Source: Seison nebaliae (Eukaryota; Rotifera; Pararotatoria; Seisonacea; Seisonidae). Taken from it: DNA of 47,731 bases. The notes beneath the pieces were generated by a model, which was not told the DNA's origin, made no database searches, and saw nothing but the letters and a program-made list of their open reading frames with translations. The DNA lies in the NCBI GenBank assembly GCA_023231475.1, contig JALJEE010001888.1, positions 1-47,731 on the forward strand. Reading direction: 5' to 3'. How positions within the stretch are numbered: position 1 is the first letter of the stretch; every line of letters begins with the position of its first letter. Below are positions 1,265 to 47,174 of the stretch, one piece after another. The position numbers and the translations under genes were made by a program.

Positions 1265-2710
1265 ATGGAAAATTTTGCAGAAAGTCTCAATAAAATTGAA
1301 TCAGCTCGATCGGCGTGTATAATAGGAGAATTTGAAGAATCGAAAAATTTATATCAGGAAGGCATTCGTTTGCTACAAGTTACTCTTGGAAAATATGGAT
1401 CACAAGTTCCCATCGAATCAACGTCGACGATGAAAGAGTTGTTGGTTTTGTGGCGAGAGGAACTTCAACTCATCGACGACCAAGAACAAAAAATTGATAT
1501 TGAACTCAATCGGAATTGTGAGGAATGTTTCCGTAAAGTCAAAACAGAAGATCATCATCGTCTCTCTCAGAAACCGGCGATTGGTGAATTTGATAATTAT
1601 TCGAATAATAAACGAATTCGTCGATTATATGATGCGCCGAAAAAATCGGAAGTGAATAATAATCGATTATTAGCGAAACCGAAAAATTCAAATTTGGGAA
1701 TTGGTGGACGTCCAAAACCACGCTTAACAAGTGGGAAAGGTGAAGGTAAATCATATGAATCAGGTAAAAAGAAGAAAGATGAAACGGAATTCGCACCGAA
1801 AGGTTTCGACAAAGCTCTCGTCGAAGCTTTAGAAGGAGATATTCTCCAAACGAACATCGACGTCAAATTTAACGATATTGCTGGTTGTGAAACGGCGAAA
1901 CGATTATTGGAAGAAGCGATTATTGTTCCCACCGTTCTCAAAGATATTTTCAAAGGAATTCGACGTCCTTGGAGAGGAATTCTCTTAGTTGGTCCTCCTG
2001 GTACCGGTAAAACGATGTTAGCTAAAGCTGTTGCAACGGAATGTAAATCGACATTTTTCAACGTCGGAGCTGCTTCATTAACATCGAAATATCACGGCGA
2101 ATCAGAAAAATGTGTAAAACTTTTATTTTTAATGGCAAGACATTATGCCCCAAGTATCGTGTTTATTGATGAAATCGATTCAGTGTCTGGTAAACGAGGA
2201 AATTCAAATGAACATGAAGCATCGAGAAGAGCTAAATGTCAATTATTGATGGAAATGGATGGAGTCACTTCATCTTCTGATGATCCTTCAAAAGCTGTCA
2301 TCGTATTAGGCGCTACTAATTGTCCATGGGATATCGATGACGCAATGAGAAGACGATTAGAGAAACGTATTTATATTCCACTACCAAATAAAGAGGCTCG
2401 TTTAAATCTTTTAAAAATTAATTTGAAAGAAATTAATTTATCATCAAATGTCGATTTGGATGAAGTTGCTGCCAATTTGGAAGGATACAGTGGAGCAGAT
2501 GTTACTAATATTTGTCGAGATGCTGTTATGATGCCAATTCGAAGGAAATTATCGGAAGTGAAGAGATCGGATTGGCATTTGATTGCGAACGAAAATCCTG
2601 AAACGACGATGGAAGATTTTTTGGCATCCATTCAAGCTATCACGTCGTCAGTTGATGAAGATCAATTATCGAAATATGATGATTGGATGGCGAAATTTAA
2701 AAGTGGATGA
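1265..2710 (+). CDS. KATNA1: Katanin p60 ATPase-containing subunit A
   Basis: Microtubule-severing AAA ATPase. It removes tubulin from the lattice and works in spindles, cilia and neurites, usually with a p80 regulatory subunit. The frame is a single exon; the first ATG (1265) gives 481 residues, close to the usual ~490. Residues 1-75 match the N-terminal MIT-like helical domain, followed by a basic linker of about 100 residues. The AAA module shows Walker A GPPGTGKT (about residues 243-250), Walker B IVFIDEID (298-305), sensor GATNCPWDID and the arginine pair RRR before LEKRIYIPLP. The tail LSKYDDWMAKFKSG matches the C-terminal helix of p60. A katanin-like paralogue (KATNAL1) is the main alternative name; the absence of introns in an intron-rich window is notable. 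Confidence 0.93.
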   Translation: MENFAESLNKIESARSACIIGEFEESKNLYQEGIRLLQVTLGKYGSQVPIESTSTMKELLVLWREELQLIDDQEQKIDIELNRNCEECFRKVKTEDHHRLSQKPAIGEFDNYSNNKRIRRLYDAPKKSEVNNNRLLAKPKNSNLGIGGRPKPRLTSGKGEGKSYESGKKKKDETEFAPKGFDKALVEALEGDILQTNIDVKFNDIAGCETAKRLLEEAIIVPTVLKDIFKGIRRPWRGILLVGPPGTGKTMLAKAVATECKSTFFNVGAASLTSKYHGESEKCVKLLFLMARHYAPSIVFIDEIDSVSGKRGNSNEHEASRRAKCQLLMEMDGVTSSSDDPSKAVIVLGATNCPWDIDDAMRRRLEKRIYIPLPNKEARLNLLKINLKEINLSSNVDLDEVAANLEGYSGADVTNICRDAVMMPIRRKLSEVKRSDWHLIANENPETTMEDFLASIQAITSSVDEDQLSKYDDWMAKFKSG

Positions 2711-2913
2711 CAATTTATTTTATTCATTTTTCCTATTTCTCATAATCATTTTTTAAGTTTTTTTTTCACATTACGAATCTTAAAAACAGTTTATTTAATG
2801 AAAATCAGATTAAATTCCACCCATTTTGAAAATTTTCAATTTATTTTAAACTCGAATAAATTCTCGAGAAATTCAAATGATAAAAGTTTTTTTTTCTTCA
2901 ATAATCATCAATA

Positions 2914-3531
2914 TCATGATGATGGTTCAATTTTTTCCCCATATTTTTTCACTACATAATTCTTCATATCTCCTATCATCAATTCGACTGGTTGTTGACC
3001 TTTGTAAATATCGGCGAATTCTTCGACGATTGTATAATGAAGTTCGAGGTCTTTGTAATTTACCGGTCGATTCATAGACCATACGGCCATATTATAATTC
3101 AATTTATTCTTTGAACTCGAATGTGCCAAAGCGGAAGAAGTTCCACATTTCAGGACATAATTATTCTTCGATGAATGATTCGTATACCATTCACCATCAA
3201 CTAATTTTTTCGTTGTTTTCGACATCATTCGAAAGAGAAATCCTTCGAAATATTTACCTCGTCCAATAATGGCAACTATTTTAAAATAAAATTAAAATTA
3301 AAATTTGAAAATATGAATTTAACCGTTCACTAAAAATGGACCTGATGTTCGTGATTTATCATGGAAAGCAAATATTTGGTATGGTGATGTTTGAGAGGAA
3401 TTCATTGGTCTTATTTTCGCACCATGACCTGGTATACCGTTCCTACAAACGGATTGTGGAAGATGTTTTCCTTTTGGATAAGCATGACTTAAAGACACCA
3501 CGAAAAATAGAATGAGAATGAATTGTTTCAT
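2914..3531 (-). CDS. Secreted single Reeler-domain protein
   Basis: Two exons, 3531-3324 and 3275-2914, joined across a 48-nt intron (GTTAAA...ATAG), give 189 residues. An N-terminal signal peptide (MKQFILILFFVVSLSHAYP) leads straight into a Reeler domain: the C..GIPGHGAKIRPMNSS opening, SPYQIFAF, then after splicing VAIIGRGKYFEGFLFRM, the typical GFLLQAR position of the fold. Stand-alone Reeler proteins of this size include the insect defence proteins and related haemolymph factors. The two cysteines expected for the domain disulphide are visible (CRNG and KCGTSS). The gene lies 151 bp downstream of GOPC on the same strand and converges on katanin. The family assignment is good; an immune role is inference from relatives. 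Confidence 0.8.
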
Positions 3532-3682
3532 ATTCTTTCTTTTTAAATAATTTCTATAATTAATCGAGAACTATTTTTACTTTTTATTTGTGTCTTAAGA
3601 CTGTTAAATGGTAAAGATGTTTAAATGAATGATGTTAAATATTATGAGATGTTGATTAAAAACAAAAGATGATAAAGGTCAG

Positions 3683-5334
3683 TCAAGTTGGAACATCGTC
3701 AGGTAGCGGAGAAGGGGCATGACTATCATTCTTCAACGACGTCATCATATTATTATTAACGATTGACAAGTGATCTCTCTCTTGATGATTATCATCATTG
3801 GATGGATTTTCATTCGTCATTTCCTCAGAAGTTTTCTTCAATTTTAATTTATTCTTCTTATTACGAAATGTCTGTTCGACGTCATCATTTTCTTCAATTC
3901 CCGGAGAGACGAATGTCACTTCCAAATCAACTTGACCAATCTAAAAAAAGAAAATAATATGGAAATTTCAAATTTTAAAAATTATTTAACAATTGATGAT
4001 AATACTTCAACAGCATCTTTATGACGCGCTGTCCTTAAATCGATGTCGTTCACTGAAAGAATTGCGTCACCAACATTCAAATTGTTAGATCGTTTGGCTG
4101 GTCCTCCTTCATGTAATTCTGAAATTAATATTGGTACTCCATGTTCTCTTCCTCCCTACATTAATTTGAAAGTAAATAAATAATAATTAATATTATAATA
4201 AATTATCAAAAAATCAATTATAACTGTTATCGACATTCCGAGACCTTCATCTTTCCATTTGTTTAAAGAGACTCGACGAAGAATTCCGATTTGTTTCTGT
4301 TCTGTCGATTTCATTTGAGATTCGTTGTGTGATTCATTAGCATCAGCTTTCCTTCCATCTCCACCTTCCAATAACATATTTTTGTCATGATCGTCATCTT
4401 CCAATTCCTCATTTACTTCATTCTCAAAATGATCGTCATTTGTTGGTAATCTCTTCGGTCCCTGACAAGCTTTCACAACGGCTTTGTGTCGATGTAAATG
4501 GATTTCTGCTTCCAATTGACACCAAAGACGTTCGTATTCGTCTTTGGGTAAATCGCGACCTAGTAATTGAAGTTGTTGGATACGACCAGCTAATTCCTTA
4601 TCGAGATATCGAGTGGCTAAACGAGAACCGAATAATTCAGCTCGACTTTCATTCAACGAATTTTGAAGCCAATTAATTTTTTTTTTCAAAATTTCATTTT
4701 GTGATTCTAATCGTTTCTTTTGAATTATCGCTGAATTCATTTCTTCTTCCATCTTCTCGTGGATGTCGTTGTCGAATTTCTTCTTCATTTTTTCCGCTTC
4801 CGTCGAATCAATAACGGAAGTTCTATTATGTTTGGGTGAATCGTCTTTAATGGATTGGGTTGGTGAACCGGCTTTATGTAATTGAAGTTGTGCTAAATGT
4901 AATTGAGAGAGAAGTTGTTGGAATTGATGATTAATCGCTTCATTTTTACATTGAATATCAACATTATCTTCCTCCATCGAATGGAGACGAACTTCCAATT
5001 TCGTCGTTGATTGTAAAGTGCTCAATGTTTTGTGTGCTAATTGTGTCCAACTGGAACAAATGGTATTTAAATGATTTCTTATCGTATCGATTAGTTCAGT
5101 GACACCGGAACCTTTTTCGATCGTTTCGTCTAAACCGGCGGCGATGGAAATCGCTTCTAATTCTCCCAACAACAATTCGATATCAACATACGAAGTATCG
5201 AAATCCTGTTCGAGAGTATCTAGCCAACGGAAAGCATTCATCGACGTGGTGATGTCGTTGGCAATCGTTTCGTCGTTTCCTAATCGACTGTTGGAACTGG
5301 TGGATGAAGTGGAAGTTTTATTAGTCTTCTCCAT
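3683..5334 (-). CDS. GOPC: GOPC (PIST/CAL), Golgi PDZ and coiled-coil protein
   Basis: Three exons, 5334-4225, 4155-3991 and 3940-3683, with introns of 69 and 50 nt, encode about 510 residues (human GOPC 462). N-terminal match: [24 protein letters not shown]. Long coiled coils follow (about 75-300), including the diagnostic block [20 protein letters not shown] and [18 protein letters not shown]. The PDZ domain begins near residue 355 with the GLGMSITGG carboxylate-binding loop, crosses the first intron, and continues through [15 protein letters not shown] and [14 protein letters not shown]. The C-terminal tail is Asn/Asp-rich and unconserved. GOPC sits on the trans-Golgi and sorts membrane cargo by binding their C-termini; the coiled coil binds golgin-160, syntaxin-6 and Rho partners in vertebrates. 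All splice phases are 0. Confidence 0.95.
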
Positions 5335-6680
5335 TGGACGAGAAATAAAGTGGGAATATTAATGGAATAATCGATAAGAAACAATTATCGAGACATCGGT
5401 TCTGAGAGGACTGAACAAAAATGAAAAATAAAACATCCTCTTCGTTCGGATGTGATAAGATGAATAATTTTATTTTATATGAAATCTTCTCGAATCATTC
5501 ACTTCTTCTTGCTTCTAAATCAACGGCTCACACACTCACATACATATTCGAATGTTCTCTCATTCGTATAGAAAAGTTTAATGTTTCGTGTTTGACGTCA
5601 CGCACTCCCTCAATTTGCATTTGAGGCAAGATGATATAAAAAGAGATTTCTTCCAAAAAAATAACTTTCTTATTCTGTCAGTGACGATAAGATGAAGTGA
5701 ATTGTCATCTAATTTATTCATATCCATCTGCTATTGTCTCCTTTTTCTCCTCCTCCTCCTCCTCCCCCTCTCACCGAATATTTCATCTAATCAGCATAGA
5801 GCAATGATTTCTATCAACAATTGTTGAAGTGAAAAATAATTAACTTCTGATTATGCAAACTCATAGCAATTAGGGAAAAGTAGAATAGCTACGGAATTCG
5901 TTAGGATTTCGGATAGAAACGAAATCAAATTAAATGATTCTCTCTCTATCTCTAGGAAATCTCTTTACTTCTTCTATAATAAAATGGATATTATAAATTG
6001 AGTTACTTATCTTCATCTAATATTTCTTTCCATCTCAACACTAATTGATGAGATTTTCGGTACAAAACGTCATGTATATTCATTTCACCAACACCAATTT
6101 CTTTGCATATATATTAGTTTGTTTCTCGTCCTCATTTTATTCCAAAATAGTCATACAGAACAAATAAATTTTCTTTTATTTCGAATTACCATTCATTCAT
6201 TCTTAAAATTTGCTTGCTACGATGAAATTACTGGAATTTTATTTTTAATTTGAAATTTATTGTACTCAAAAGTCATCAATATTTTATAACATAGATTTCT
6301 AAATTAGAAATCGGATAAATCATTTTAAGGAAATTGTTCGTAAAGAAGAAAATCATTTAGATTTTGAGGAAAACTAATGAATTTTTTAAATTTACTTTAA
6401 ACTTAATTTAGAACTTTCAATGTTTTATCCAATTTAAGTCAAACTGAAAAAATTAAAAAAGTTCACTGTTCACTATAATTTTTAATATCATCTGACTACG
6501 TTCCATACTATCGGTCGTTGTTCACTTACATTACATGTGATATTAATCGAATAATGTTCTTGTTTGATTAATAATTAGTTGGAATAAAGAGGAATATCAA
6601 AACAAAGACATTAGAACAATTGGGAGAACAAATCAATTGAATAAAAAACTTGATTTTTTTGTAGTAAGAGATTTGGAAAG
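5335..6680. other. Divergent intergenic region
   Basis: About 1.3 kb between the GOPC start (minus) and the large repeat-protein gene (plus), so both promoters should lie here. It contains a (TCC)n pyrimidine stretch at about 5743-5770 and AT-rich sequence elsewhere. Just before the downstream ATG, a T-run ending in TAG (about 6654-6665) looks like a splice acceptor, so the downstream gene may have an upstream non-coding or short coding exon that I cannot place. No other coding signal is visible. Confidence 0.45.
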
Positions 6681-9600
6681 ATGCGTGATCAAAATAGAAA
6701 AATATATGAATCGACAAGTGGAAAGTCATCTGATATACTTGACAGAATATCACACACTACTCCAAGACCGACGGAGAAGCCGACTTGTAGTAAAAACGGA
6801 GCAGATGTCGTACTTATGAATTTGAGTTATCTTCCGAAGAATCCGGCAAATAAATATGTTAAAGATCGATTACAAGAGCGACTTAATAGATGTTCAAATA
6901 AAAAGAATAAATTTATGAATGCTGTTCGTAAATCAGTGCCAATTCATGACACTAAAATTGATCGAATTACTGTTGATAATTGCAAACAGGCTATTACATG
7001 CAACACTATTGATAAAAAATTATGTCCACAAATTGAAGAGAATTCATTTGATATTATACGTGAAGATCATCCGGTAAGAGATAAGTGTAATGATTTTACT
7101 CAATGGAAACGATCATATTTGGTTGAACATTGTGATTTTCAAATAAGGTCACCTCAAATGATGAACGAGAGAGACGAACAATCATCACCAGGTCCCAGCG
7201 GCAGTGTTAGTGGAATGCGTCGTCCCAGTAGTATAGAAGAACTTCGTCGTAATAGTAGTATATCTCCACATGTATTCGCTTATTCGGCGGATCATGGTGG
7301 GCATGTTTATTCTCCACGTTCAAGTGATACACGACGTTCAACAAAATTTTCTCATGAATTACGATCTTCACGTCCTCAACGCCAAACTTTAAATATTCGA
7401 GATTCACTTTTCACTAATGATCACTACAATTCCGAACCGAATGTTGATGGTTATTCGAAACGTCTCACTGGTAATTTACGTCCATCTCGGGTTACTTTTG
7501 GAGATAATTCCACTTATGATCGGAATTATGATTACAATTCTCGACGTCCAAGCGGCAGTTTACGCTCATCTCATTTATCGAATTACTCGTCCGATTATAG
7601 TGTTAATCGTCAATCATCTGTTAATCGCAGTTTACGTCCATCAAATTTTGGTGGTAAGATTTATAGTTCGGACCAAAGTACAAATTTATACTCACAATAT
7701 CCCAAAGGTAGGGCCAGTTCTCCACGATTGTATAGGGCTCAATCATATTCATCTAAATCGAATGGTTATAATTACACACAACAACAACCAACCGGTCCTT
7801 CTGAATCACTTCACTCACAACAACTGGCTGATGGTTTTGGTTATCAATATCAACCCAATAGTACTTTCCACTTAGATCGTCCGAGTAGTAGTATTGGAAC
7901 GGTACACCCGACCAGTAATACGAACTTCGGAGAATTACATCCTAGTGGATTCGCGGGTCAAAGTAGCGGTTTCCCTAGTTCTGGACCTGATATGCAACAA
8001 GGAATTGTTGGTATGTTAGATCATCAAGGTAGTGTTTTCGCTCCTCATCCAAGCGGTAGTCACATGCCACAACAAATGGCGAATTTTGGTTTGGCAGGCC
8101 AAAGTGGTAGTTTTGGAGTTACTGAAAAGAATGGCATTGTTCGTATGTTGGATCAAAAAGGTAGTGTCTTTTTGACGAAGCCTAGTTTTATTACACCTCA
8201 TCAGAATGCTCAGCTTAACGATCAAAGTCAAAGTGATAATTTGGGGGTTGCCCAGAAACACGGCACTGCTTTTATGTTAGATCAAAAGGGTAGTGTTTTT
8301 CAATCACATCCAAGTGGTAATCCTATTCTGCCACATAACAGTGCTCAATTCGGCGAAGCTTCCGACAGTAACACTTTTGCTATGGTCCAAAAAAATGGAA
8401 CAGTTGTAATGTTACATCGGAAGGGCAGCGAATTTCAACCTCATCCAAGTGGAAATATTATGCGACCTCATCAGAGTGCGAAATTAGGAGACACTGACCA
8501 AAGCATGAGCTTGGCTCAAGTTCAAAAAAATGGAACCGTTGTAATGGTAGATCCAAAGGGAAGTGTTTTTCAACCACAACCAAGTGGGAATATTTTAAAA
8601 CCTCATCAAACTGCCAAATTTGGAGAAACTGAGCAAAGTACTAGTTTTGCACAAGTTCAAAAGAATGGGACAGTTCTAATGTTAGACCAAAAAGGAAGTG
8701 TTTTTCAACCACAACCAAGTGGCAATATTCTCAAACCTCATCAGAGTGCTAAATTTGGAGAGACGGAACATAGCACCAGTTTTGCACAAGTTCAAAAGAA
8801 TGGAACCGTTGTAATGGTAGATCAAAAGGGAAGTGTTTTTCAACAACAACCAAGTGGCAATATTTTAAAACCGCATCAGAGTGCCAAGTTTGCTGAGGCG
8901 AATGAACCTAACGACTTAACTACAGCACAAAAAAATGGCACTCTAGTTTTCCAAGATCAGAAGGGTAGTGTTTTCCAACCAAGTCCAAGTAGTAATATGT
9001 TAAGACCACATCAGAGCGCCAAATTTGGAATGGCCAATAAGAGCGTTAGCTTTGCTATAGCTCACAATAATGGTACCCTTCTTATGTTGGATCAAAAAGG
9101 CAGTGTGTTTCAACAACGACCGAGTGGCAAATTTTTAGGACCGCATCAGAGTGAAAAATTTGCAGACGTAACAAAAGAATCCAGTTTCGCCATAGCTCAA
9201 GCTAACGGCACACTTGTAACACTAGATCAAAATTGTAGTGTGGTTGAGTTACAGCCAAGTAATACTGATATTCGACCACACCAAAGTGCTAAATTTGGAA
9301 AAGTGGATGGTCCTGTAGATTTTAATAAAGCTGAGAAAAATGGAACATTAGTTATGATTGATAAAAAAGGAAGCATAATTCAACCACATCCAAGTGGCAT
9401 TCTTATTCGTCCACATCAAAGTGCCACATTTGGACAAGCTAACGAAAGCACTGTTTTTGGATTGGTCCAGAACAATGGCACAGTTATAGTAGTAGATCAG
9501 AAAGGTAGTGTTCTACAACCATATCCAAGCGGGACCATAGTTAAACCGCATCGTAGTGTCAAATTTGGAAAGACGGAAAGTAGTTTTGCGATTGCTCAAA

Positions 9601-13509: not shown

Positions 13510-13578
13510 ACTTTCCTTTCGTCTTTTAACATCTCCCCCACACACATCTCTCCTCACGACTATCCTCAAATTGTTTCA

Positions 13579-28128: not shown

Positions 28129-29807
28129 TCATTTCATCTGCTCCCCATCGAATGAACAGCAATGAATTAATGATTGTGGATATTTGAGTTTCCGTTTTCG
28201 ATCATTTCTCGGTAATGGACTACTCTCTATTGTACTGACATGTTCGTCCACGATATGTGTCTCGAATAATTCGAGTTTTTCAAAATATTCATCACATGAC
28301 AAACAGAAATAATCGCAATTTTTTGATGATTTGATAGTGGTGGGAGCAGTGAGACGTACATCCGTCATATCCACCAAATCTCCAATTGTATCGATGTGAA
28401 TAGATGAAGTTGATGATGATGATGGAAATTGATTCGATTTATTTTCATTCACTGTCATGAATTGGAATGAATCGATTGATGAATTTAAATTCGAAGGAAG
28501 GAATTCGGTGTGAGAAATCTTCTTTAAAATATCCAATTCGTCTGATGAGAGAAATGATCGTTTCCCTAAAATGTTGTTAATTCGATTCAAATTCATCTCG
28601 TTCAATTGTAAATTTGAATTTAAAATTTCTATCGAATCCTCATCATAATTATGTTGTTGATTGTCATTGGGAAATTTATTTTGAGTCGAATTCTCGTCTG
28701 TTAAAAGGAGATTGAGTAACGGAAAATTTGAATTTGATGATTTGCCAATATCGTTGTTTATAGTGGATGTTTCTTGATCAGTCGCTGGATTGACATTTTC
28801 GAATTCATTTTTATTTTTATTCATTTTTTTCTTCAAATCATTTATCCGTTGGATTGGATCGTTAAGTTTGGGCGAATCGTGACTCACTTGACTATTGAAC
28901 CATTGAACGATTTCGAAGAGATTCTTTTGTTGTTCCGTTTCTCGACAATTATTCCCAAAACCTAATTTCTTTGTGTCGATATCATTATCCGATTTTTTTT
29001 CACCACAATATCTTTCCTTCAATTTCGACAAATTTTTCAAACTCTCTTCAAATGAAATATCGGATAATTTATCTTCCTTCTTCCTCAAATCATATGCTTT
29101 GTCGAATGAATCGATATTTTGTTTCTCATTCGATTGATATCGTTGACAATCATTCAAATATCGAGAAATGATCGAATGATTCTGAGAATTTCTTGATTCA
29201 ACTCCATTTGCACCGATCGAAGATGTGACTGTCGATGTAGTCGTCGTATTAACGATCGTTGTCGACGGTTGTAATGATAATGTTGATGGTGTTGACGAAA
29301 GAAGGAAATTGTTCGAATTATTAATTTTTCCTGAAAATTCAAAAAAAAAATTTTATGAAAATTTTTATAATAATTTCTTTAAATATTTAAATGCAAATTA
29401 ACCTTGTTGTTGTTGTTGTTGTTGATGATGGAAATGAGATGTTGATCGTTCGATCTGTTCCGCTTTCGTTTCCATATTCCGAATACTCAATTTGGGAATG
29501 GCTAATCGATGTAGTCGCGTCACGTATAATGGAGTGGCACCGTCAGATTGGAGGCCTTTATTGACGACATGATATTCGTCTTTGTTGAAATGTCGAGAAC
29601 AAACGGTCATATTCGCTTTCATCTTATAATCCATTTAAAAAAAAGATTTAACGATAATAATGGAACTTCAATATGGAGATTATTCTCACCGATGGCACGG
29701 AGCCATGCCATTCGTCTTTCCGGATCTTTCGGAAAGGAGAAATATGTGACATTCTTATCTTTGTTATAATGATTGCCACAACCAGTGACGATACATTTCT
29801 TCGGCAT
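28129..29807 (-). CDS. THAP-domain protein with one C2H2 finger
   Basis: Three exons, 29807-29667, 29622-29403 and 29330-28129, with introns of 44 and 72 nt, encode 520 residues. The start MPKKCIVTGC is the standard THAP opening. C2-C-H zinc ligands are the two cysteines of CIVTGC and the C..H of VCSRHF; the W of MAWLRAIG and the P of the distal AVPTIF-like region (ATPLYV) also fit. A poly-Q run ends exon 2. The rest is Asn/Ser-rich; near the C-terminus CLSCDEYFEKLELFETHIVDEH is a C2H2 finger with C-x2-C-x12-H-x4-H spacing. THAP domains bind DNA and descend from P-element transposases. I place the exon1/2 junction at a phase-0 GTTCCA donor; the better-looking GTGAGA at 29688 breaks the frame. 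An in-frame ATG five codons upstream (29822) is possible. Confidence 0.85.
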
Positions 29808-30251: not shown

Positions 30252-32985
30252 ATGGATCAACAAGACACAACGGAAACGACGGAAGATACTGGAGTTCTTC
30301 TCAAACGAATGTTTTTCAACAACGTCGACGAATATGTCGGAAGAGTTATAGCGAAAGTTCATACATTTATTAAACTTTACAAAATTTTCAAATTCTCTCA
30401 AAGTTTATGACATCGAAACGATTCGAGAATTACAACGAAGAAGAAGGGGAAATAATTGACGACGAAGATAAATCCGTTCATGATGATCCTCGAAATCATT
30501 GGACTTGTTTAGGAACGGTCAACAACCCCGAATATGTCAAACCCGTATACATTGAGAAAATAGTGAATGTTAATTCAAGATCATTCATTGTCTTAAGTGA
30601 TCGGAGATCATTTTTTAGAAAGCTCATCGTGACGAATTGGAGGAAACTATAAAGAGTTGTGACGCCATCGTTTATGATATTTCTTTAGCATCTGAATTTG
30701 AAATTGATGAAGCGGTTTTTGTTGCCGAAATGATGATGAAGGAATGTGAGAATTTTGTGGATCAGAAAATGTTCATTCTCATTTCTAACGTCTTAACTTG
30801 GGCCAATACGAAACAAATGGAAGTTTTATTTCTTTTCTGTTTTGAAGAACATTCAAAATCATTTCTCAGGAAGAGGAAGATGACGCTCCATTTTCCGAAG
30901 ACGATTTCCGTCGACGACGACCTCATCCAAATTATAAAGATCATTTCGAAGCGGAAAAGCGAATTATGTTTTGTGGACGACATGTTCCGTTTTCTTTCCA
31001 AAAATTTTCATTCAAATTCTATTTTTTTTTTTAGAATAAGAAAAAATTCATAACTTATGTCGTGTCCACGGGATTCTTATATGGTTATGGTGAATTTTTA
31101 TTCCAAGATTATTTCAAACGATGTTGGTTGAACAATCAAACTATCGACGTTTACGGTGATGGCACCAATACACTTCCATTAATTCATGTTGTAGATTTAG
31201 CCAAGTTTTTCTTTTTTAATATTTAATTATTTAATTTCTTTTAAAATAATTAAAATTAAAATTTATTTGTTTATAGTATTGTGTTGAATGTGGCTGAGTC
31301 TAAACCGAAACCCAAATTTTTAGTAGCAGTTGATGAGACTAATCATACGTTGAGTGAGGTAGTGAAAGCGATTAATGGAGTGTTAAATAAAGGTCGAATA
31401 AAATATGTGATGAAAGAAGATGCATTTCGAAATAATGATTTGACGGTTCGTCCATTTTTCATTAATTTTCACAAAATATTCTTATTATTTATTAGCAACC
31501 AATGATCGATATGTTATCATGTTCTATGAAATTGGATGGAATTTACGTAAAAGAAAATTTCAATTTCGATTGGGAATGCGAATCAGGTTTCGTCGATAAT
31601 ATTGAACAAGTTGTCAAGGAATTTCGAATTCATCGTAGTTTAGAAGTTTCTTTTTTTTTTAATTTTCAAATTTTAATTTTTAAATTTTAATTGTCAATTT
31701 TCGTTAGCCATTCCGTTTAGCGATTATTGGACCTCCGGCAGTGGGTAAAACTACATTGGCGAAACAACTCGCTCTCCAATATAAGATCCATCATTTGACC
31801 GTACAAAATTTGATTCAATCATTTCTTGAAGAAATGCAAGTGTCTGATAATCAAGCGAGTTCAGAAGATACTCCGTCTGAGGACGAAGAAACTAACTTCG
31901 ATGATTTACAACAAGACAAAGAATTGTTCGCTTCTGTGGAAGAGGCGAATGTTGGATCAGGTGGTCGATTATCAGACGAAGTATTAATTCAATTATATAA
32001 GCGGAAATTGAAATCGACTCCATATCAAAATCAAGGATTCATCATTGACGGTTTCCCAAAAACGGAAGAGCAATTACAAGATTTATTCGTGAATGATGTG
32101 GATGTAGCTGAGAATACGGAAGGTGATGAAGATAAAGAAAAAGAGCCTCAATATAATAAATCGATTACTCCAAGTAATTCTTCTATATTCACTTCTCCTT
32201 AACTACAAATTTTAGATGCCGTTTTTTGTCTCGATGCCAATGACGATTTCTTGAGTGATCGAATTATGAATCTACCAGAATTGGAAGTTAGTGGAACGCA
32301 TAATAATGAAGAGAATTTCCTTCGACGAATCGCTACTTATCGAAAAACAAATATGGAAGAATCAACTTCGGTCGCTAATAAATTTGGTGAATTAGATATT
32401 ATGGTGAAAAGAATAAGTTGGATTTTTTAAAAAATTTTCTTTAAAATTCTTTTTTTTTTAGGTGTAGAAGATGATACTTCAATTCTTCATTTGAATATTT
32501 TGAATGAGATTAAAGAGATAATTGGGAAACCTCGGAATTATGGTATGACAATCGAAGAGAAGAGAATGATGGAAAAATTGGAAGCGGAAGAATTATTGAA
32601 GAAAGAGAATGAAGATCGAGAACATCTGGCTCAATTGGAGATGGAGGAGAAATTAGAAAATGAGAAAAATGAAAAGAAATGGGTTAATAATTAACGATTA
32701 TTTATAGTTTCAAATAAATTCATCATCAGAATGAAAGATTGATGGAAATAAAAAAAGAGGAGATTGAATTACTCGAAGCAAAGTCGTTACCTCTGCGGAA
32801 TTATCTTATGAAATATGTGATGCCAACTCTGACGAAAGGAGTCCTCGAATGTAACACGTTAAGGCCAGATGATCCTATCGATTTCTTAGTTCATATTTTC
32901 AATTATTCTTAATCAAAATTCTCTCAATTGTGTTTAGGCGGAATATCTGTTCAAGAATAGTCAAGAATTTATTGATATTCAATAA
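30252..32985 (+). CDS. AK7: Adenylate kinase 7 (ciliary)
   Basis: Twelve exons (30252-30356, 30404-30562, 30619-30822, 30870-30983, 31035-31204, 31277-31445, 31496-31645, 31708-32173, 32216-32416, 32462-32682, 32730-32888, 32938-32985) give 721 residues; human AK7 has 723. The N-terminal half is the SDR/Rossmann-like domain ([55 protein letters not shown]). The kinase part starts with P-loop GPPAVGKT (about 365-372) and continues [14 protein letters not shown], with a long acidic insertion. A coiled coil precedes the DPY-30 motif ([19 protein letters not shown]...[12 protein letters not shown]). AK7 supplies nucleotide balance in motile cilia and sperm tails. The stop codon lies inside AATAAA (32981-32986), which may double as poly(A) signal. 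Confidence 0.97.
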
Positions 32986-33274: not shown

Positions 33275-33855
33275 ATGTGGAAAATTTTAAGTTTAATTTT
33301 TCTTCTTCATTTCGCATATTCGTTACACGAGGATAAGGTGAAACAAGAAAGTTTCCATTCAATTCTTAATTAAATTATTTAAATTATCGTCATTAGATAT
33401 CTGTGATCAACCGTTACAAATCGGTTCATGTAGAGCGTTGGAATCTCGATATTATTATGATAAGGAGAGTAAGGAATGTAAAGAATTCACCTATGGCGGT
33501 TGTCATGGCAACGAGAATAATTTTGAGAATTATGAACAATGTTATGTTCAATGTATCCTATTATCTCAGGGAATAGAAGAGGCGGAAAGTGCCACTGATT
33601 TAACAAAAGAATTCGGCACAATTGATGCAATGGATGATGCAACTTTCGAGAAGGAATTCAAAATGAAGAAATCCTTTTACGATGAAACTATGAAAGATGC
33701 TTATGACCATTTAACAGAAAAGGAAAAAGAGGAAGCAAAGAAAGCTAGTTACATGGATATCAATGAAATTCCAAAAGAATATCATCAATTTGAAGGTAAT
33801 CACTAATCATTCCGATTTTAAATATTCTAAACATAATCCACCAGATATATTCTAA
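33275..33855 (+). CDS. Secreted Kunitz-domain protease inhibitor
   Basis: Exons 33275-33350, 33397-33795 and probably 33845-33855, with introns of 46 and 49 nt, encode about 161 residues. Signal peptide MWKILSLIFLLHFAYS. The Kunitz/BPTI domain spans about residues 29-80 with all six cysteines in standard spacing (ICDQP, GSCRA, ECKEFTYGGCHGN, QCYVQC) and the FTYGGC core. The reactive-site residue after the second cysteine is Arg, which predicts inhibition of trypsin-like proteases. An acidic-basic helical tail of about 80 residues follows, without further cysteines, unlike most single-domain inhibitors. The end is ambiguous: reading on gives FEGNH and a stop at 33806; splicing gives FEDIF. It lies 289 bp downstream of AK7. 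Confidence 0.88.
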
Positions 33856-35924: not shown

Positions 35925-36428
35925 ATGGTAAGTACTTATGGGAGAGTGATAAGGAGAACATATTTTCCTAAACGAAAACGGTCAATATGGAAGAAGCAGA
36001 ATAAACATTTAATTAGAAAGGAACAAGGTGCAAACGGTCGTTGTTCAGGGCCAACCATGAATAAAATCAATACACCTAACTTCTTAATTAGTCAAATGAG
36101 TCAAGTAGAGAATCAAGGAAGAAGTAGAAGAATATTCGAACGACTCACTAAATACAAATCGAAACAATTTACTCCTCCTATGTCGAAAGGACGCGGGAAT
36201 TGTATCCAAAACATTTTCTTCCCAACCAAACAAATTCAAAAAAATGATAAAATAGTAAAAGAAAAAGAAGACAATTCTACCGATAAACTTGCCTGTTATT
36301 CATCTTCTTCTTTTAAGAGTCTATTAAGACGAATTAGAACAGTTCGTCGAAATATTAAGCATGTTAAAAATATTTTTTCGAATTTGAACGAAAGGGAAGA
36401 AAGTATTCTTCGAAAGAATTCTCTATAA
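35925..36428 (+). CDS. Basic single-exon protein, function unknown
   Basis: An ORF of 167 residues from ATG 35925 (MVSTYGRVIRRTYFPKRKRS). It is strongly basic, with Lys/Arg clusters throughout and a Ser-rich segment (CYSSSSFKSLLRRIRTVRR) near the C-terminus; a nuclear or nucleic-acid-associated protein would fit, but no domain is recognised. The start codon is followed at once by GTAAGTAC, the only textbook splice donor I noticed at a coding position in the window; the frame nevertheless runs through it uninterrupted for 160 codons. An acceptor-like TTTTCAG lies 28 bases upstream of the ATG. Confidence 0.6.
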   Translation: MVSTYGRVIRRTYFPKRKRSIWKKQNKHLIRKEQGANGRCSGPTMNKINTPNFLISQMSQVENQGRSRRIFERLTKYKSKQFTPPMSKGRGNCIQNIFFPTKQIQKNDKIVKEKEDNSTDKLACYSSSSFKSLLRRIRTVRRNIKHVKNIFSNLNEREESILRKNSL

Positions 36429-38610: not shown

Positions 38611-38747
38611 CTTCAACGATGTCCTTCCATCTCGTCCATCTAAAATTGAAATGATAAAATTGAGAGAATCGAAGAAAGACAGAACATACAGATGAAATAT
38701 GAGAAGTTGCATATGAATTGAAATTACGTTTTCTCTAACAAATTCAT

Positions 38748-39029: not shown

Positions 39030-40030
39030 CGTCCTTCAATTTCAGTAGTTAATAATAATTGTTCTCCACTAATCTACTAATATTAAATTGAGTTTATTCA
39101 ATAACCAATTAGTGTTAGTTTAATTTGAATTTTATTATTATTCAAATCTTATAATATTAGAAGAATAAAACTATAAAAATAATCTTCTAAAGTAGAAGAA
39201 AATTTCTTTTCCAAGTTTGTCAAGACGTAAATATTTTACAGTCAAGAAATTCATTCGATTGGAAGACATTTCTATCAATTATTCTCAGTGATTGAAGTTT
39301 ATTTTTATTATTTATCAAAATCCAAATAAACAAACAAACCGAAATATGGATTATAGTCCAATTTTGTGTATAGACTTTATTAATGATCAAATTTAACTTT
39401 CGAATTTACCTTCTAGTCAATCTCCAACGATTACTTACTTACACTTATAAGTAATCCCGTTATTTTTATAACGATAACTAATCGTTAACTTGTAAGTTGT
39501 ACTTCATTACTTCTTCCAGAATCTTCAGCCAAACATCGTCACTCTTAAAACTTTTTAATAAATTCTTTTATTTCTCTTTTTTGAGGCATATCAAATTAAA
39601 ATCGAATGACATAATTAATCCGAATTAATTTAATACGAAATTGAATATTTTAATTAAAAAACTGACATTATTAAATTTTATTTGCGTCTCAATTTTAATT
39701 ATTAGTTCCCGACAAATATCTGGTGTTTCCTCGTTGTTGATAATTCCATTGAATATTGACAATTTCTTAAGTGGAACAGACTGTAAATTTGTTGGAATTG
39801 GACAATTTTGTATAATTAATCCTATTAAAGTTAATATTTTTTTTTTATTTTAAGTTAATAATCCCCTCGGGGTAATATATTTTTTTTTAATTTTTTTTTT
39901 TCCAGAAAATGTTATTGCATTTGAATTCTTTCTTGAAAAAAAAAAGAAACAAAATATCGCTTAAAAATATAAATAAACTAAATTTTCCATAATCAAATAG
40001 ATTTAAAATATTCTTTTCTTCCTTCCACCA
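39030..40030. other. Intergenic region with clustered inverted repeats
   Basis: About 1 kb between the unknown gene's start (minus) and the CHMP4 stop (minus). It holds three neighbouring inverted repeats at 39429-39487 (annotated separately). A segment at 39705-39830 is open (SRQISGVSSLLIIPLNIDN, then GTDCKFVGIGQFC) behind an acceptor-like ATTATTAG and ends at a GTTAAT donor, so it could be an exon of a small secreted peptide, but no start exon can be placed. Confidence 0.4.
39429..39487. repeat. Cluster of three short inverted repeats
   Basis: GATTACTT (39429-39436) pairs with AAGTAATC (39449-39456); CGTTAT (39458-39463) pairs with ATAACG (39468-39473) across TTTT; TAACGAT (39469-39475) pairs with ATCGTTA (39481-39487). 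The second and third share bases and exclude each other. They could mark an old mobile-element end, a regulatory RNA fold or protein-binding sites. Confidence 0.5.
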
Positions 40031-40693
40031 TTAGCCAGAGGCCAAATTATTCTGATCTTCCAAATCTTGATCGACTTGAGTCTTTGCTTTGACAGGTTCT
40101 GAGGCAGATACTGATGGTAACAGATCCGTCACATTATCAGCAATATCCAACATCTTTTCATTGATTTCTTCTTGTTCCATTTCTTCCAATTCCGCCAACA
40201 GTTCATTATCGTCTGCATCAATTTTCCTATTCATCGGATTGGAAATCGCATCGTTTATCTCTTCTAGGGTCCTATGTTGTTCTTGGATATCATCCATCAA
40301 CTCCTGTACATTGTCGACTCCACTCAATTCTTTGTGAGTTCCTTTCAAAGCCTTTGCACCTTGTTGCATCGCTTTCAACACTTCAGCATTGGAATTTGCA
40401 TTCTCTAAACAATCTCTCTGATATTCTAATGTGGCTATTGTGCCATCGATTTGGTTTAATTGTGATTCATATCGTTTCTTTCGTTTTAATGCCGCCAATG
40501 CTCCTCTTTTATTTTCCGTTCCATATTGTTTCGCATTCTTTAATTCATCGTCAATTTTTGTTTCTAATAATTCCGTCTTTTTCATCAACGTATCCTCCAC
40601 ATCTCTGAAACGTTCAATAGCCTCTTGAGGTGACGGCTCTTTCCCATCTTTCGATTTTCCAAATATCCGATCAAATAATGAAACTTTTACCAT
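40031..40693 (-). CDS. CHMP4: Charged multivesicular body protein 4 (ESCRT-III, Snf7)
   Basis: A single exon of 220 residues, normal for CHMP4. The basic N-terminal helices (MVKVSLFDRIFGKSKDG, then the long helix through ALAALKRKKRYESQLNQIDG) and the acidic C-terminal half (DDNELLAELEEMEQEEINE) match CHMP4/Snf7, the main filament-forming ESCRT-III subunit in multivesicular body formation, cytokinetic abscission and membrane repair. The segment before the end (ADNVTDLLPSVS) is where the ALIX- and VPS4-binding helices lie in relatives. Vertebrates have A, B and C paralogues; which one is not meaningful here. Confidence 0.96.
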   Translation of the reverse strand: MVKVSLFDRIFGKSKDGKEPSPQEAIERFRDVEDTLMKKTELLETKIDDELKNAKQYGTENKRGALAALKRKKRYESQLNQIDGTIATLEYQRDCLENANSNAEVLKAMQQGAKALKGTHKELSGVDNVQELMDDIQEQHRTLEEINDAISNPMNRKIDADDNELLAELEEMEQEEINEKMLDIADNVTDLLPSVSASEPVKAKTQVDQDLEDQNNLASG

Positions 40694-41364
40694 TTTGCGA
40701 TAATTGGAAGTTTTAAAAAGTTTTTCAAATAAAAAATTGTTTGTCTATCAGTTAGTAGTTCGTTTGTTAAAAGACTCAATTCGCTTAGTACTAATATTAG
40801 TCGCTGATTGACAAGGTCAAATTTTATCGTAGAAGTCAAAATAGAAATTAATTGTTCAATCAGGCAAAAAATATGCAGTGTATTTTTCTTCTAACGACAC
40901 CAGTATATCGGAAGATGAATTTGATTCATAAATATAACGAACTATAAAATTCAAAAGAGAAACTTTCAAAATCTTTTGGAATGAACTAACATGAACTTTA
41001 AGAAAACGTGGTCATAATTAAATATTTATCAATCACTTCCTTACATGAATTATCGTGTAACTACACATCTACACCGTAGGGCTGGGGGAATGATCCATGT
41101 AGTACACCGTTACATTTGATTTATTGTGGAAAATTTCTTATTTGTTTAAATGATTTTTCACTCCCTGTCCTTTTGATGTTATATCAGTCCAATTATCGCC
41201 TATCAGTTTTCCCTCTGTAACGAATTCTCCCATTCTATGGATTGTTTGTCTATTTGGAAATCTATGTTGTCATAGTAACGACAATCGGTCAACCAGTTGA
41301 TAAATTGGTGCTTCATTTTTCATCAACTAACAAGCTAAGTATATCGGTTAACTCGCAATCCGAA
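40694..41364. promoter_or_regulatory. Divergent CHMP4/RGS22 intergenic region
   Basis: About 670 bp between the CHMP4 start (minus) and the RGS22-like start (plus). A GC-richer island ACACCGTAGGGCTGGGGGAATGATCC (41070-41095) stands out from the AT-rich context. The 41242-41364 stretch is open in frame with the downstream ATG but only from a TTG, so it is probably 5' leader. Confidence 0.4.
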
Positions 41365-44300
41365 ATGTCTGGAAATCTTCAATTGGAACTTGAGGTCGAT
41401 GAATTATTATTGGAATATTTTAATTATTATTTAAAATCTCCTGTTATCTTCAACGTTTTTTAAATAATCAATAATTTTAATTTTCAGAGTTTACCAATAG
41501 TCGTCGAATATGATAAGGTCAAGAATAACATACAACTGACAACCAACACAACTTTATCATCCGAAATTACAATATGTCAATATGAAGAACAGAAGTTGAC
41601 TGAGTTATTGAATGGATTAAGTAATTCTACAAATGTCACAAGAAGTCATTTCCCACTACCACACTTTCTAAGGTTGGATGGTCAGAAACCGCAAACAAAT
41701 TCGACAAATAATCAAGTCACTTCGGTCGATATCGAATATAGAAACTCGAATTTGTTCGAATGGTTAAATTGTGAACGATTTAATTTTTTCATCAAGTTTC
41801 CCGACTTCTCTTTGTCTTCTTCCATAATAAATTTAAATAGAACTGAACTCTATCGAGAGTATTTACTTTGTCAGAATTTATTGGCACCAACAACAAAACC
41901 AAAATGTTATTCAACTTCTGCAAGATTGAACAATGACACGTATCGACAATTATCTAGTCGTCTTTTAGGCGGAAGAAGTTACACAGGTTAACCATTTTAA
42001 CCTCCATCTTAATATCATTTTTGTTTTCATTTTATTTTTTTAAATTTCCATTTTATTTTTTTTAAATTTCCCTTTTAATTTCATCTTATCTTCCATCAGA
42101 ATTAAGTTTTACAACTGATTTGATTGATAAGCAAACAACTTCGAGGACTAAGGGACTTCATTCAAATAATAAAAACAAAACCAAATCAGCCATAATCGAT
42201 AGAGAAAACGGTTTTAAATTTTTTTAAATGATACAATTTAAACTTTTTGATAGATGACAGAAGAGTAAAATCGAATAGTTCCTCTTTTATTAGTTGGACA
42301 AAATTCCAACACAAATACACCAAGTCCAAGAATATTCCTTGGACCATTCTAATGAAAGAAATTAATCCATCGTTTAGTCAATTCTAATAGATATTTGAGA
42401 ATATTTATTTGTAGAAATGAATCGAATGAAAATTATCAAATGGACGTTGAAGCGTCAAAGAAGAATTTACAACGAAAAATTCTGGAAGAGAACCATGAAA
42501 AATTTATCGGAAATGTTATATCTTTCTTATTTCATTTAATTTTATTCTTCAATTATCAGTTAAATGGAATGAAACGTTTCGTCAAGTATTTGCGAAACAC
42601 GAGTGGAATTTATTTATATCAATTTTGGATGGATGTTGAATTCTTTAAACAAACCATGAAAATTTTCGATGACATACCACAAATGCCTAGTCGTGCTAGA
42701 GATTTAAGGTTTCCATCATTTTCTTTCATAATTTTTTCTTTTTAACGAATTTTTTAGACGAATATTTTTTCTATTTTCTCATGTATTCGACGAGAAAACA
42801 TGGAATGCATTAACAGAATTCTTCCAAGAGAATAACTATGAAATTCGACATAACATTCTCAACGACGTTCAATATAACATTTTACGACGACTTCGTAGTT
42901 ATTGGGTTCCACGATTCATTCTCAATGAGATGACATCGAAAGAATTCGAATCGATTAATTTCGCTCATCAAATCAATTTAGTCCTAGAAGATTTTGATAA
43001 GAAAATGATAGAACCAATCTCGACCATTATACATGACGACCAAATGGAATTATTTGATGATATCGATATCTTCAAAAACGAAAATAAAACACAATTTTCT
43101 AATCGATTGCCACAATACTTCATCAACATGGCCATTTGTGGTGATATGGATTATGGTGCACCATTTTTAGAATATGTTTGTCTGTTAGTTTAAAATTTTC
43201 AATTTTTTTTCAGTTTTCTTTCCTTTAGACAACATTCGGATAAATGTATGGCGATACTTCTGTTTTGGATGGATACGATTCGTTTATATAAGGACTGGTA
43301 TCGATTAAGTGATGATGTTCGATTAGAACAATGTTGGGCGATGTATCATACATATCTGGATATCAGGAGTAATCTCTATTTGAGTTTGGAGTGAATTATT
43401 TAAAAATTTTTTTTGATTGTTCTTTTGAAATTGATTAGATTTTGATTTGAATGAGAATCATAAAATTCGAAATTTATTAATGAATGTGAAAGAAAATAAG
43501 AAAACAGATATTTCACAACGATTCGATGAAAAAAGGCGATCTCTAATATCGAAATATAGCGAAGGAAAATATCAATCGATTGACAATACTGTGAAATTTT
43601 CGAAAACTAATAGTCGCAGACCGTCATTGACTATAACTAGAGAGATTCAAAAGAACGACGATTATGAGGAGAAAGTGAATGAACGAAGAGTCCGAGAAGA
43701 ACAATTGAAACGATCGATGGATAAATGTGGAGATATTGAGGAGAATAAGAATGTTTTAGATATCAACATATTTTCCTATTATCGTAATACAATTTTATTA
43801 CCGATTGTGAAGATGTTGTGGCTGAATTATGTGAAGTATGATATCATTAAATATCGAATGTTTATTTGTTGAATATTTATTTATAAAATTTCTCTATTCT
43901 CTTCGATTTTAGTGCGGTCATCAATAGTTGCATTAGATTGTTGAAGAATTATGGGAATAAAGTTTTCGCGAACAAAGTTCAATTTTCCCATTGAGATTTT
44001 GAGATTTGATGTTTTTATCGTTCCAGAATGAAAGTGAGGGGGAGAAGAACGGTGAAATGTTCAGTATTCAAGACAATAAATTAAGGGAACTTATCGTACA
44101 GACATTGCAGCCCCAATTGCGATATGAACGACAACAACTTATTCTCAATTGTGATAGTATGGAAAGGTCGGTGTAATAATATGTCATAAAAGATCTTTCA
44201 TAGTCTTCTACCGAATTCTCTTCATTTTCAATTTATTCCTATTAAGTTTAATGGAATATGCTGAAGAACTGATCTCGATCGACCATCCTGTAGTAACGAC

Positions 44301-47174
44301 AGTTGTTACGAACAATTCAAAGAAGGTGAAATTAAGCGAAGGAAAAATTGAAAAGAAACGACGTCTGACTGAAGATGAACGACTGGAACGGAAGAAGTTT
44401 TATGAGTTTATGGATAAACAAAGAAAGAAAGTTTCACATTAAAGAAAATTATTCATAAATTTTCAAATTTGTAGACTGTTCGAGCGGTTCTCTCTCGTCA
44501 GAATGCTGATCGGAATAAGGCGAAATTGAAGAAATTAGCAGAACGAAAGAATCAAGAGAAGAATGATGATAATAGTGAGACGATAAGAGAAGAGATTGAA
44601 GAGACGATTGATGAAGAGATGGTAGAATTGAATCGAAGGAAGAAAATCGAACAAAAATTCGACAGTTATTTAAGTAATGACGGGTTAATATGCTTCTGAT
44701 TCCGAATAATCCGAAATTGATCCGAATTCCTTAACAAACAATTTCCATCAATTAGTTTATTTCAATTGATGGTGAATGAATTTTCAAAAAATAAACAACG
44801 TCAAACTTTCGTACCTCCATTACAATTCGTCAAACAGACTAATCAGCTAACAAATAGTAAATTAAAAGTTATTTGTCCATTATTATTTATATTTTTGTAA
44901 TAAATTTTATCCATATTTTATTTTGGATTGATCATTAACTGTTGAATTGAAATATTGTGAATGAAATAGAATAAAAAACAAAAATTTTCAAAACTTTCAA
45001 CCACATTCCTCAGCGGGAAAGCAGCTAGTCGTCTCAAAATGATATTAGACAAAAAGGAACAAATTGTATTTGGTGAACATTTGAAACAAGCACAATTATC
45101 GATGCAACCGGCTTTCATACAACTGTCCAACTTACTCCGAGACAAAGTAACACCAGTTTTTGAAGTTCAACAAGCCACTTAATTTATGGTTTTGTATTTG
45201 CCCTTTTTCCAGGATTTTTATTCAGATGAAGCAAATAGAACGGGAAATGATGGTGAAAATTTCAGAAAATTTTTAGATTTATCCACCGATGAATTGATTA
45301 ATAAATATACAGAATCAGGAATACCAATTTTCAATGAAAATGATAAGCAAACGGATAATGAGGACGCATTTGATGTTAACATAATTATCGAAGTTACTTT
45401 CAAATTTAACGTCAAAAAATGAAGAATAATAATAATATATTTAGCCATGTACGAATGGAAAGAAGACACCAAATGATCTTGATAAGAAGAATTTCGTCAG
45501 TTTATTAGAAACGGTTGCTACTGGAGGTATAAATTTAAAGCAGAAAATTACATCTTCTTTCGACTTGTCAATGATGACGGACAATAAGGAGATAACGGAA
45601 GAACGTAAAACATTATTCCGAAATTATCAACATCAATACTCTCATTATTTGGCATTTCTCAGCAACATCTGTGGTGAAGTGATTCATAAGAAGAATACAG
45701 GAAATAGTTCAAACGCATCTCAACAACAACAACAACAACAGCAAATTGCTCAATCGATTGTTAATCAAAGTCGTCGTCAATCGACATTGACTTCTAATGA
45801 TAGTTTGACGGTAAATGGGACAAAAGAATTTGGAATTGATATACCGTATGGTAGACAATTATTTGAAGCGCTTCCAATTTTGAAGAAACGGAGTCCGTAT
45901 GGTCATAAAATGGAGAGAATTCTAGGAATCAACGGAATTGAACCAATGCAACAGGAAGTAGCTGAAACTAAATTGATGGTTCCAAACCATTTGGACGATT
46001 TGGCGAAAGCATTAACGGCAAAAGGAAAGAATATCAGTTCAACGTTAAAAAAGAAAGATCCAGAAATCGAATTAATTTTTCCTTCAATTAATTGTTCTAT
46101 TCGAAATTCAAATAACGAAAATCTTCCATGGTTGGACAACGATCTAAAGTTTTATGTGGAATTACTTCGATTCAAAGTTTAAAAATTTTAATTTTAACAA
46201 TTTTTTTATTCAATTTTTAAAAAAATTCAGGAAATTTGTCATCCTAAATCGAATGTGGAATTGAATCGAGCGAAAGCATTATATCTAATTGATTCATTTC
46301 TCAATTGTAAAGTATTCATTCCACCAGCCATGCAATTAGATATTCCGGTTGATATCGGAAATCGATTGATTAAAAATCTTGAAAAGTTTCATATTTTCTT
46401 CTTTTCCCTTAAAATTTTTCATAATTGATGATTGATAGATATTCAAATCAATTACATTCCGGTGAACATACAAGTAGCACAACAGGAATTGGTTCAAGTT
46501 CAACGTCGGCCGTTCAACCACGTTCCTCCAAAGGTGGTCGAAATACTCCGTCGGCAAGAATGGGCGGAAATAGTGCCCAAGTGCCTTGTCCAATGTGTTT
46601 GAATAAAGATCAATTACAAGTAATTGATGATTGTCTATTACATATACTCACATTATTGTTACCATATTATTCTTGTTTCCATCAGTACTACAGGAAAGAC
46701 TACAATCGATTTTACGATAATAAATACGCAGGTTCTTTCTAAATTGTTTATTTTTTGTATTAGATTTTTTCGAAAATAGTCACCAAAAGACAAGGAAGAA
46801 TTCTGCAACGTTACAAATTCTATGATACTGATGATCAACAACCTCTGGAATATTCGATTGATGATTTGAGAATTAATATAAATGATAAATCTGTTCCAGT
46901 AGCGAATTTACCTTTACCCGATAAGAAACGGTCAGATTCGAGACAAAAGGATCAAAATAAATATTCGAATGCACCACTTAAGATGACTCTTCTTAGTGAT
47001 CCGAATTCACTTCCACCGATAATGGAGAGTCCACGACCATCAAACACTAGTAAACAAGCAAGTCGAAACAACGCCTCAATAAATCTACATTTTTCACTCG
47101 TCTCCGGATTAACGGTGAAGAAGGCGAATACTCAATCATTTACTAACCAAAATAATATGGAAATTAAAACATGA
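41365..47174 (+). CDS. RGS22: RGS22-like multi-RGS-domain protein
   Basis: Twenty exons: 41365-41442, 41488-41986, 42100-42210, 42254-42323, 42415-42514, 42560-42708, 42758-43183, 43229-43383, 43439-43835, 43913-43961, 44027-44166, 44247-44430, 44475-44683, 44756-44867, 44970-45164, 45213-45374, 45445-46176, 46231-46385, 46439-46731, 46780-47174; about 1536 residues (human 1264). Family landmarks in order: VDELLLEYFNYYLKSP near the start; MKRFVKYLR...LYQFWMDVEFFK; YWVPRFIL; CMAILLFWMDTIRLY; AASRLKMILDKKEQIVFG; PWLDNDLKFYVELLRFK; CKVFIPPAMQLDIPV; and APLKMTLLSDPNSLPPI near the end. RGS22 is a testis and ciliated-cell protein that binds G-alpha subunits in vertebrates. Splice choices near 42324-42414 and 44868-44969 are uncertain, and poly-Q lies at about 45720-45742. 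Confidence 0.85.

Follow-up and report, generated by a model that had tools for sequence, protein, structure and literature searches.

Which bases mark a 5' splice site in the rotifer Seison nebaliae (Rotifera, Seisonacea), and what reads them? The question is raised by contig JALJEE010001888.1, a stretch of 47,731 nucleotides (hereafter the window), in which a sequence-only reading had placed introns by eye, found that they mostly begin with GTT and lack G at +5, noted that U at +3 faces a pseudouridine in ordinary U1 small nuclear RNA (snRNA), and proposed that U1 has changed in this animal or that other factors govern donor choice. We confirmed the GTT donor pattern, which proved stronger than the by-eye counts suggested. 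Together with the U1 genes described below, it points to a U1 whose donor-reading end has changed from U6 to A6 and would pair with U at donor position +3, donors genome-wide having settled on GTT; we give this reading a probability of about 0.82. Genome-wide searches covered 36.03 Mb in 846 contigs; the genome paper, in its accessible text, describes a 44-Mb assembly with RNA-seq of 22.9 million read pairs and does not mention splice-site sequence (PMC8351084).

Introns were called with a semi-Markov gene model that covers both strands and draws its codon usage from 59 long open reading frames (ORFs). Introns were constrained to GT...AG and the donor matrix was flat at the start; no donor preference beyond GT was built in. 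From this flat start the model was trained by expectation-maximisation (EM), initially on the window plus 20 loci (247,731 bases) and finally on 40 sources (300,673 bases), the overlapping loci L002, L009, L010, L014 and L016 being excluded and L045 being added later, outside the set. Introns with a posterior of at least 0.9 are called confident unless another cut-off is named. T stood at +3 in 136 of the 148 confident introns (A 7, G 3, C 2), against 40.2% T after any GT here (binomial p = 5e-40). The window contributed 41 of them (T 39, A 2) and 25 other loci 107 (T 97, A 5, G 3, C 2). These donors depart from the animal consensus of R at +3 (here 10/148) and G at +5, the latter occurring at background level (29/148 versus 15.8%, p = 0.13). 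None is GTAAGT, GTGAGT or any other GTRAG. The by-eye counts (52 of 64 introns with GTT, 12 with G at +5, none with GTAAGT or GTGAGT) thus hold on all three scores. Composition was T 61, A 47, C 36, G 4 at +4; A 57, T 37, G 29, C 25 at +5; and A 83, G 32, T 23, C 10 at -1, with exons ending in AAA before 33 of the donors and T-rich positions from +7 to +10. Relative to base composition, the donor held 1.06 bits of information at +3, 0.16 at +4, 0.03 at +5 and 0.24 at -1. On the acceptor side, -5 to -7 are T-rich and -3 is C or T. The introns fit the major class (U2-type), with a GT donor and an AG acceptor, both imposed by the model, and a pyrimidine-rich 3' end.

The preference for T was present before training. 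In an untrained single pass with intron lengths up to 80, T stood at +3 in 79% of 100 introns at a posterior of at least 0.5, 77% of 43 at 0.8 and 77% of 35 at 0.9; with lengths up to 400 the shares were 74% of 38, 73% of 11 and 83% of 6 introns. The first EM converged at 0.91 T at +3, with A 0.36, T 0.27, G 0.19 and C 0.18 at +5 and a median intron length of 52; 117 of its 126 introns at 0.9 carried T at +3.

Deposited proteins and homologues gave the same donors. Two S. nebaliae proteins of the deposited annotation (SNEBB models, made with or without RNA reads) were mapped to the window by a mapper that accepted GT or GC donors with AG acceptors only; they yielded 31 introns, 29 GTT, one GTA and one GTC, with G at +5 in five. 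In the AK7 gene the gene model and SNEBB_005092 alike placed ten GTT introns and one GTA intron, one more GTT than the nine of 11 counted by eye. All in-frame, stop-free junctions within 24 bases were scored against a profile of 67 non-Seison AK7 homologues, and the model donor came top among the GT-AG choices in 11/11 introns. A rival GT donor existed in five, scoring 6.7 to 37.1 bits lower, and in six there was none; without any constraint on the dinucleotides, the model junction came between 1st and 13th among 404 to 657 options. For the RGS22-like gene, SNEBB_005098 raised the earlier 16 of 19 GTT introns to 19 of 20; our own model (1501 amino acids) is 94% identical to that protein, with four points of difference. 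Outside the window, CCT3 (L044), which aligns to bovine CCT gamma residues 3-534 in one stretch with short gaps, has five GTT introns and one GTC, and the CCT gene in L043 has one GTT intron, by the model only. The sequence-only reading had also listed two textbook donors as ignored. In the THAP gene this stands by reading frame: splicing at GTGAGA (minus strand, starting at 29689; earlier given as 29688) breaks the frame, whereas reading through it to the GTT donor at 29666 keeps a THAP-like C...C...CSRHF frame, although the model gave that intron a posterior of 0.38 only. The other case is half verified, in that GTAAGT at 35928 is present inside a mechanical ORF but the gene model places no coding exon there.

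Could the pattern come from a model drawn to T by the AT-richness of the genome, or from mis-assembly? A and T make up about 69% of the genome, and 40% of GT dinucleotides are followed by T. An EM in which any dinucleotide was allowed collapsed into short pyrimidine tracts and was discarded, and in a single-pass control the raw log-likelihood of TT and AA donors exceeded that of GT, and that of a TT acceptor exceeded AG; the advantage of TT and AA reflects words that are frequent in an AT-rich genome. In single passes that imposed each of the 16 dinucleotides in turn as donor, GT yielded the most introns at 0.8 (51 versus 12-41) and the highest share with T at +3 (41/51; the runner-up, TA, had 20/34), and with the 16 imposed as acceptor AG came out ahead (51 versus 13 to 45). 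These controls were run on S. nebaliae sequence itself. Set beside the concordant deposited proteins and homologues, they leave the artefact close to refuted.

What, then, would read GTT? Of 293 first-look candidates, 41 were scored with the Rfam covariance model RF00003, which gave at least four U1 snRNA genes, at 97.4 to 112.9 bits and all over the gathering score of 69.5; a DNA search with the U1d sequence recovered U1d alone and missed the other three. Three of the four detected genes start with AUACUAAC, not AUACUUAC, and so have A at U1 position 6, the position that faces donor +3, which supports the earlier suspicion of an altered U1. The full 5' ends, read like the donor pattern directly from the DNA, are AUACUAACCUG in U1a (L001) and U1c (L003), AUACUAACUUG in U1d (L004) and AUACUUACCUG in U1b (L002). 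The last is the canonical end, found also in the Rfam consensus and, to our knowledge, in the U1 of other animals. The A6 genes are 75, 78 and 78% identical in pairs (22-25% of aligned sites differ) and 75 to 80% identical to U1b; positions 1 to 8 do not vary among the A6 genes, and C4 is unchanged in all four genes. The stems covary, with double changes at 15 of 41 predicted pairs. The three A6 genes retain AUUGCAC in loop II, which we take to be the U1A-binding motif, and the Sm site AAUUU-G. U1b also retains its Sm site (AAUUUCUG) and has AGAGCAC in loop II, to which U1A may bind more weakly. U1a and U1b share a contig, the canonical-ended U1b lying about 1.5 kb from an A6 gene and facing it. 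U1d carries a second change, C9 to U, which would allow pairing with A, the most frequent base at -1 (83/148). A 3' box derived from these genes, AATTAAACTTT, scores 11, 10 and 11 of 11 positions after the A6 genes and 11/11 after U5; downstream of the U2 genes it scores 9 and 10 for two of them and 6 for the weakest copy. Upstream, a 12-base motif resembling the proximal sequence element (PSE) beat 12 shuffled sets (34.7 versus at most 30.0). The pattern ATACTNACYTGG occurs at 10 places in the genome, four of them the U1 genes, and its reversed control at 34.

The fit of these ends to the donors was then compared. The U1 small nuclear ribonucleoprotein (snRNP) is described, in the part of the source available, as selecting donors mainly via base pairing, with U1-C contacting no bases (PMC4383343). 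Because donor +4 faces U1 position 5 according to the corresponding section of PMC10581693, +3 faces position 6, and A6 pairs with U at +3. In a fixed register +1 to +3 are fully paired in 136/148 donors with A6 U1 versus 7/148 with canonical U1. The mean number of Watson-Crick pairs out of 11 was 4.91 for the canonical end, 5.78 for A6 and 6.13 for A6 with U9 (U1d), over backgrounds from all window GT sites of 4.22, 4.41 and 4.57; invented control ends gave 4.89 (C6) and 4.88 (G6). Duplex energies in a free register were -1.80 (canonical), -2.39 (A6) and -2.90 (U1d), and -1.56 and -2.88 (G6) for the controls, with backgrounds of -1.74, -1.84, -1.86, -1.97 and -2.77.

Several observations weigh against a changed U1 as the reader of GTT. 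The free-register energy does not single out A6, the invented G6 end reaching -2.88, yet this lies near its own background of -2.77. Pairing is not maximised: GTTAGT accounts for 5/148 donors, and C4 is kept in all U1 genes yet +5 G is not, a loss for which U1 offers no explanation. One detected gene, U1b, keeps the canonical end and may well be expressed. Its 3' box is passable, at 9/11, a score near chance (reached by 7.6% of shuffles and by 129 of 3180 window 45-mers); the idea that U1b is a pseudogene without a 3' box was dropped on this score. The PSE-like motif is good upstream of U1b and poor upstream of U1a and U1c, so the A6 genes are not favoured there. U1b could be either an expressed variant or a decaying copy. 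Finally, the evidence on U1 is genomic and comes from a single species.

Other components of the spliceosome look ordinary. The U6 ACAGAGA box is unchanged and U5 loop 1 is canonical (GCCUUUUAC). The U1-C gene (L040) is present and conserved; hand placement gives it two introns, both GTT, and the joined protein aligns gap-free to human U1-C 1-57 across both junctions, while the model gave the second intron a posterior of 0.54 and did not call the first. A METTL16-like ORF (PF05971, 44.8 bits) has matches to METTL16 in the PDB at E about 2e-8, the top matches being psilocybin synthases of that family, and the SNRNP27K gene reaches 86.6 bits with the SNRNP27 profile. Both genes (L042, L045) are present though the +4 A preference is lost (47/148), and loss of METTL16 or SNRNP27K was rejected as the cause of the donor shift. 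LUC7 proteins may help to distinguish donor classes; a single LUC7 gene was found, in three pieces. With METTL16-like, SNRNP27K, LUC7 and U1-C genes all present, the change did not follow the yeast route of the +4 shift. Among the U2 genes, a diverged copy (L039) scores 78.7 bits versus 135-139 for the other two, is without a 3' box and is possibly a pseudogene or variant.

T at +3 might nevertheless be set by some other factor (U6, Prp8, SNRNP27K or a binder of U-rich sites such as TIA-1), with A6 secondary or minor and the canonical U1 doing the work. A canonical U1 gene does exist, the donors are without the +4 to +6 matches expected under U1-driven choice while +7 to +10 are T-rich, and Entamoeba, with GTTTGT donors (PMC4053983) and reportedly without U1 snRNA (PMC13292270), indicates, as far as the available text of these papers goes, that +3 T is possible without a U1 change. 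We consider this improbable, since A6 in three diverged copies is exactly the base that pairs with the shifted position, and an unrelated change would have had to strike that site by chance and survive 22-25% divergence; nor is U6 altered. Rather less improbable, if still unlikely, is a split between two U1 classes, in which A6 U1 serves the GTT introns (about 92%) while canonical U1b is left with either the GTA/GTG minority or a role outside splicing, for instance nascent-RNA protection. U1b has kept its stems and Sm site as well as all 11 bases of the canonical end, and the ten donors with A or G at +3 would be its clientele; these non-T donors, however, are unlike GTRAGT, one of the window's two confident ones is GTC in the deposited model, and the loop II of U1b differs from that of the other three.

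A changed U1 remains the reading we favour, and a route from the sequences to a spliced intron can be proposed for it. The A6 genes would be expressed and form a working U1 snRNP. Most U1 genes read 5'-AUACUAACC(U/C-type)UG, so that A6 would pair with U+3 while A7-U+2 and C8-G+1 pair as before; U1-A6 would read G+1 U+2 U+3, tolerating A or G at the preceding position, and U9 of U1d would suit A at -1. Because the U1-donor helix is short, it is likely that each tiny intron (median length 52) is recognised as a whole, its T-rich 3' end included. The donor would then be handed over to the U6 ACAGAGA box with little help from +4 to +6, and an A-rich or AAA exon end could pair with UUUU of U5 loop 1. 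Human donors have been divided, in the accessible text of PMC11732430, into two classes, one relying on U5 and the other on U6. A changed U1 is probably not sufficient by itself, given that C4 is kept in all four genes while +5 G is lost, and that one U1 gene is canonical. We tentatively raise a further idea, itself rather doubtful: A6 U1, with the U9 copy, could be the main donor-reading U1, co-evolved with nearly all introns, and the canonical copy could be kept for a separate job, giving two U1 specificities per nucleus.

Coordinates of the features discussed, together with neighbouring genes, are collected below.

Table 1. Features of the window and spliceosomal genes elsewhere in the genome. 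Positions are those of the window unless a contig (C) is named. M, gene model; H, homologue profile; P, deposited protein.
Feature	Position	Strand	Basis or remark
AK7 gene, 723 amino acids, 11 introns	30252..32985	plus	spliced model 100% identical over 723 amino acids to SNEBB_005092
AK7 intron 1, AAA/GTTCAT	30357..30403	plus	M, H, P
AK7 intron 2, AAT/GTTAAT	30569..30618	plus	M, H, P
AK7 intron 3, GAA/GTTTTA	30823..30869	plus	M, H, P
AK7 intron 4, CAT/GTTCCG	30984..31034	plus	M, H, P
AK7 intron 5, CAA/GTTTTT	31205..31276	plus	M, H, P
AK7 intron 6, ACG/GTTCGT	31446..31495	plus	M, H, P
AK7 intron 7, GAA/GTTTCT	31646..31707	plus	M, H, P
AK7 intron 8, CAA/GTAATT	32174..32215	plus	M, H, P; sole non-T donor of AK7
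AK7 intron 9, TAA/GTTGGA	32417..32461	plus	M, H, P
AK7 intron 10, TGG/GTTAAT	32683..32729	plus	M, H, P
AK7 intron 11, TTA/GTTCAT	32889..32937	plus	M, H, P
RGS22-like gene, 1556 amino acids, 20 introns (19 GTT, 1 GTC)	41365..47174	plus	SNEBB_005098
RGS22-like introns 1-7	41443-41487, 41796-41840, 41987-42099, 42211-42253, 42372-42414, 42515-42559, 42709-42757	plus	SNEBB_005098
RGS22-like introns 8-14	43184-43228, 43384-43438, 43860-43912, 43977-44026, 44167-44246 (GTC), 44431-44474, 44684-44755	plus	SNEBB_005098
RGS22-like introns 15-20	44868-44969, 45165-45212, 45393-45444, 46177-46230, 46386-46438, 46732-46779	plus	SNEBB_005098
THAP gene intron, GAA/GTTCCA	29623..29666	minus	reading frame; model posterior 0.38 only
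Kunitz-domain-like small gene	33285-33806	plus	directly 3' of AK7; model at first fused both via a false 313-base intron
Transfer RNA gene	784-856	minus	75.9 bits
U1b (L002)	C208:6576-6739	plus	Rfam U1 match
U1d (L004)	C762:47440-47598	minus	Rfam U1 match
LUC7 gene	C540:21603-22771		three pieces
Diverged U2 copy (L039)	C796:78598-78799		78.7 bits

The donor-reading end of U1 is regarded as nearly fixed, because a change there should disturb all introns at once. S. nebaliae shares with the canonical metazoan U1/GTRAGT system an RF00003 U1, U1-C, GT-AG chemistry, the U6 ACAGAGA box and U5 loop 1; it differs in having A6 in three of four detected genes, T at +3 in 92% of donors and no preference for +5 G or +4 A. 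The alternative U1 of a diplonemid, presumably Sulcionema specki (PMC12621601), and human variant U1s (PMC13172311) have altered 5' ends as in S. nebaliae, but the available parts of these papers present them as minor or extra copies, the main donors being served by a canonical U1, whereas here the variant forms the majority of detected genes and fits the genome-wide donor. The accessible text on 240 yeasts and outgroups (PMC10581693) likewise describes a lineage-wide change at one donor position, a shift of +4 from A to U that tracks loss of METTL16/SNRNP27K; U6 ACAGA was 100% conserved there and U1 ACUUACC invariant wherever U1 was found, despite the donor shifts, whereas S. nebaliae combines changed U1 genes with the presence of METTL16-like and SNRNP27K genes. 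Entamoeba shares T at +3 and differs in keeping +5 G and in its reported lack of U1 (PMC4053983, PMC13292270; accessible parts). Searches of the open-licence PMC literature listed no paper about splice sites in Seison and none describing an animal whose majority U1 end differs from the canonical one, subscription papers lying mostly outside that scope and absence being unproven. The evidence supports regarding the apparent U1-donor change as a variant of a known interaction, new and striking. In practical terms, gene finders tuned to GTRAGT would fail on such a genome. The donors indicate that a genome can lose both +4 A and +5 G while METTL16-like and SNRNP27K genes persist. A natural paired switch of U1 and donor in an animal would show that the U1-donor code can evolve, and S. 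nebaliae would be a natural U1 specificity mutant, in which the order of events could be tested in sister rotifers and acanthocephalans.

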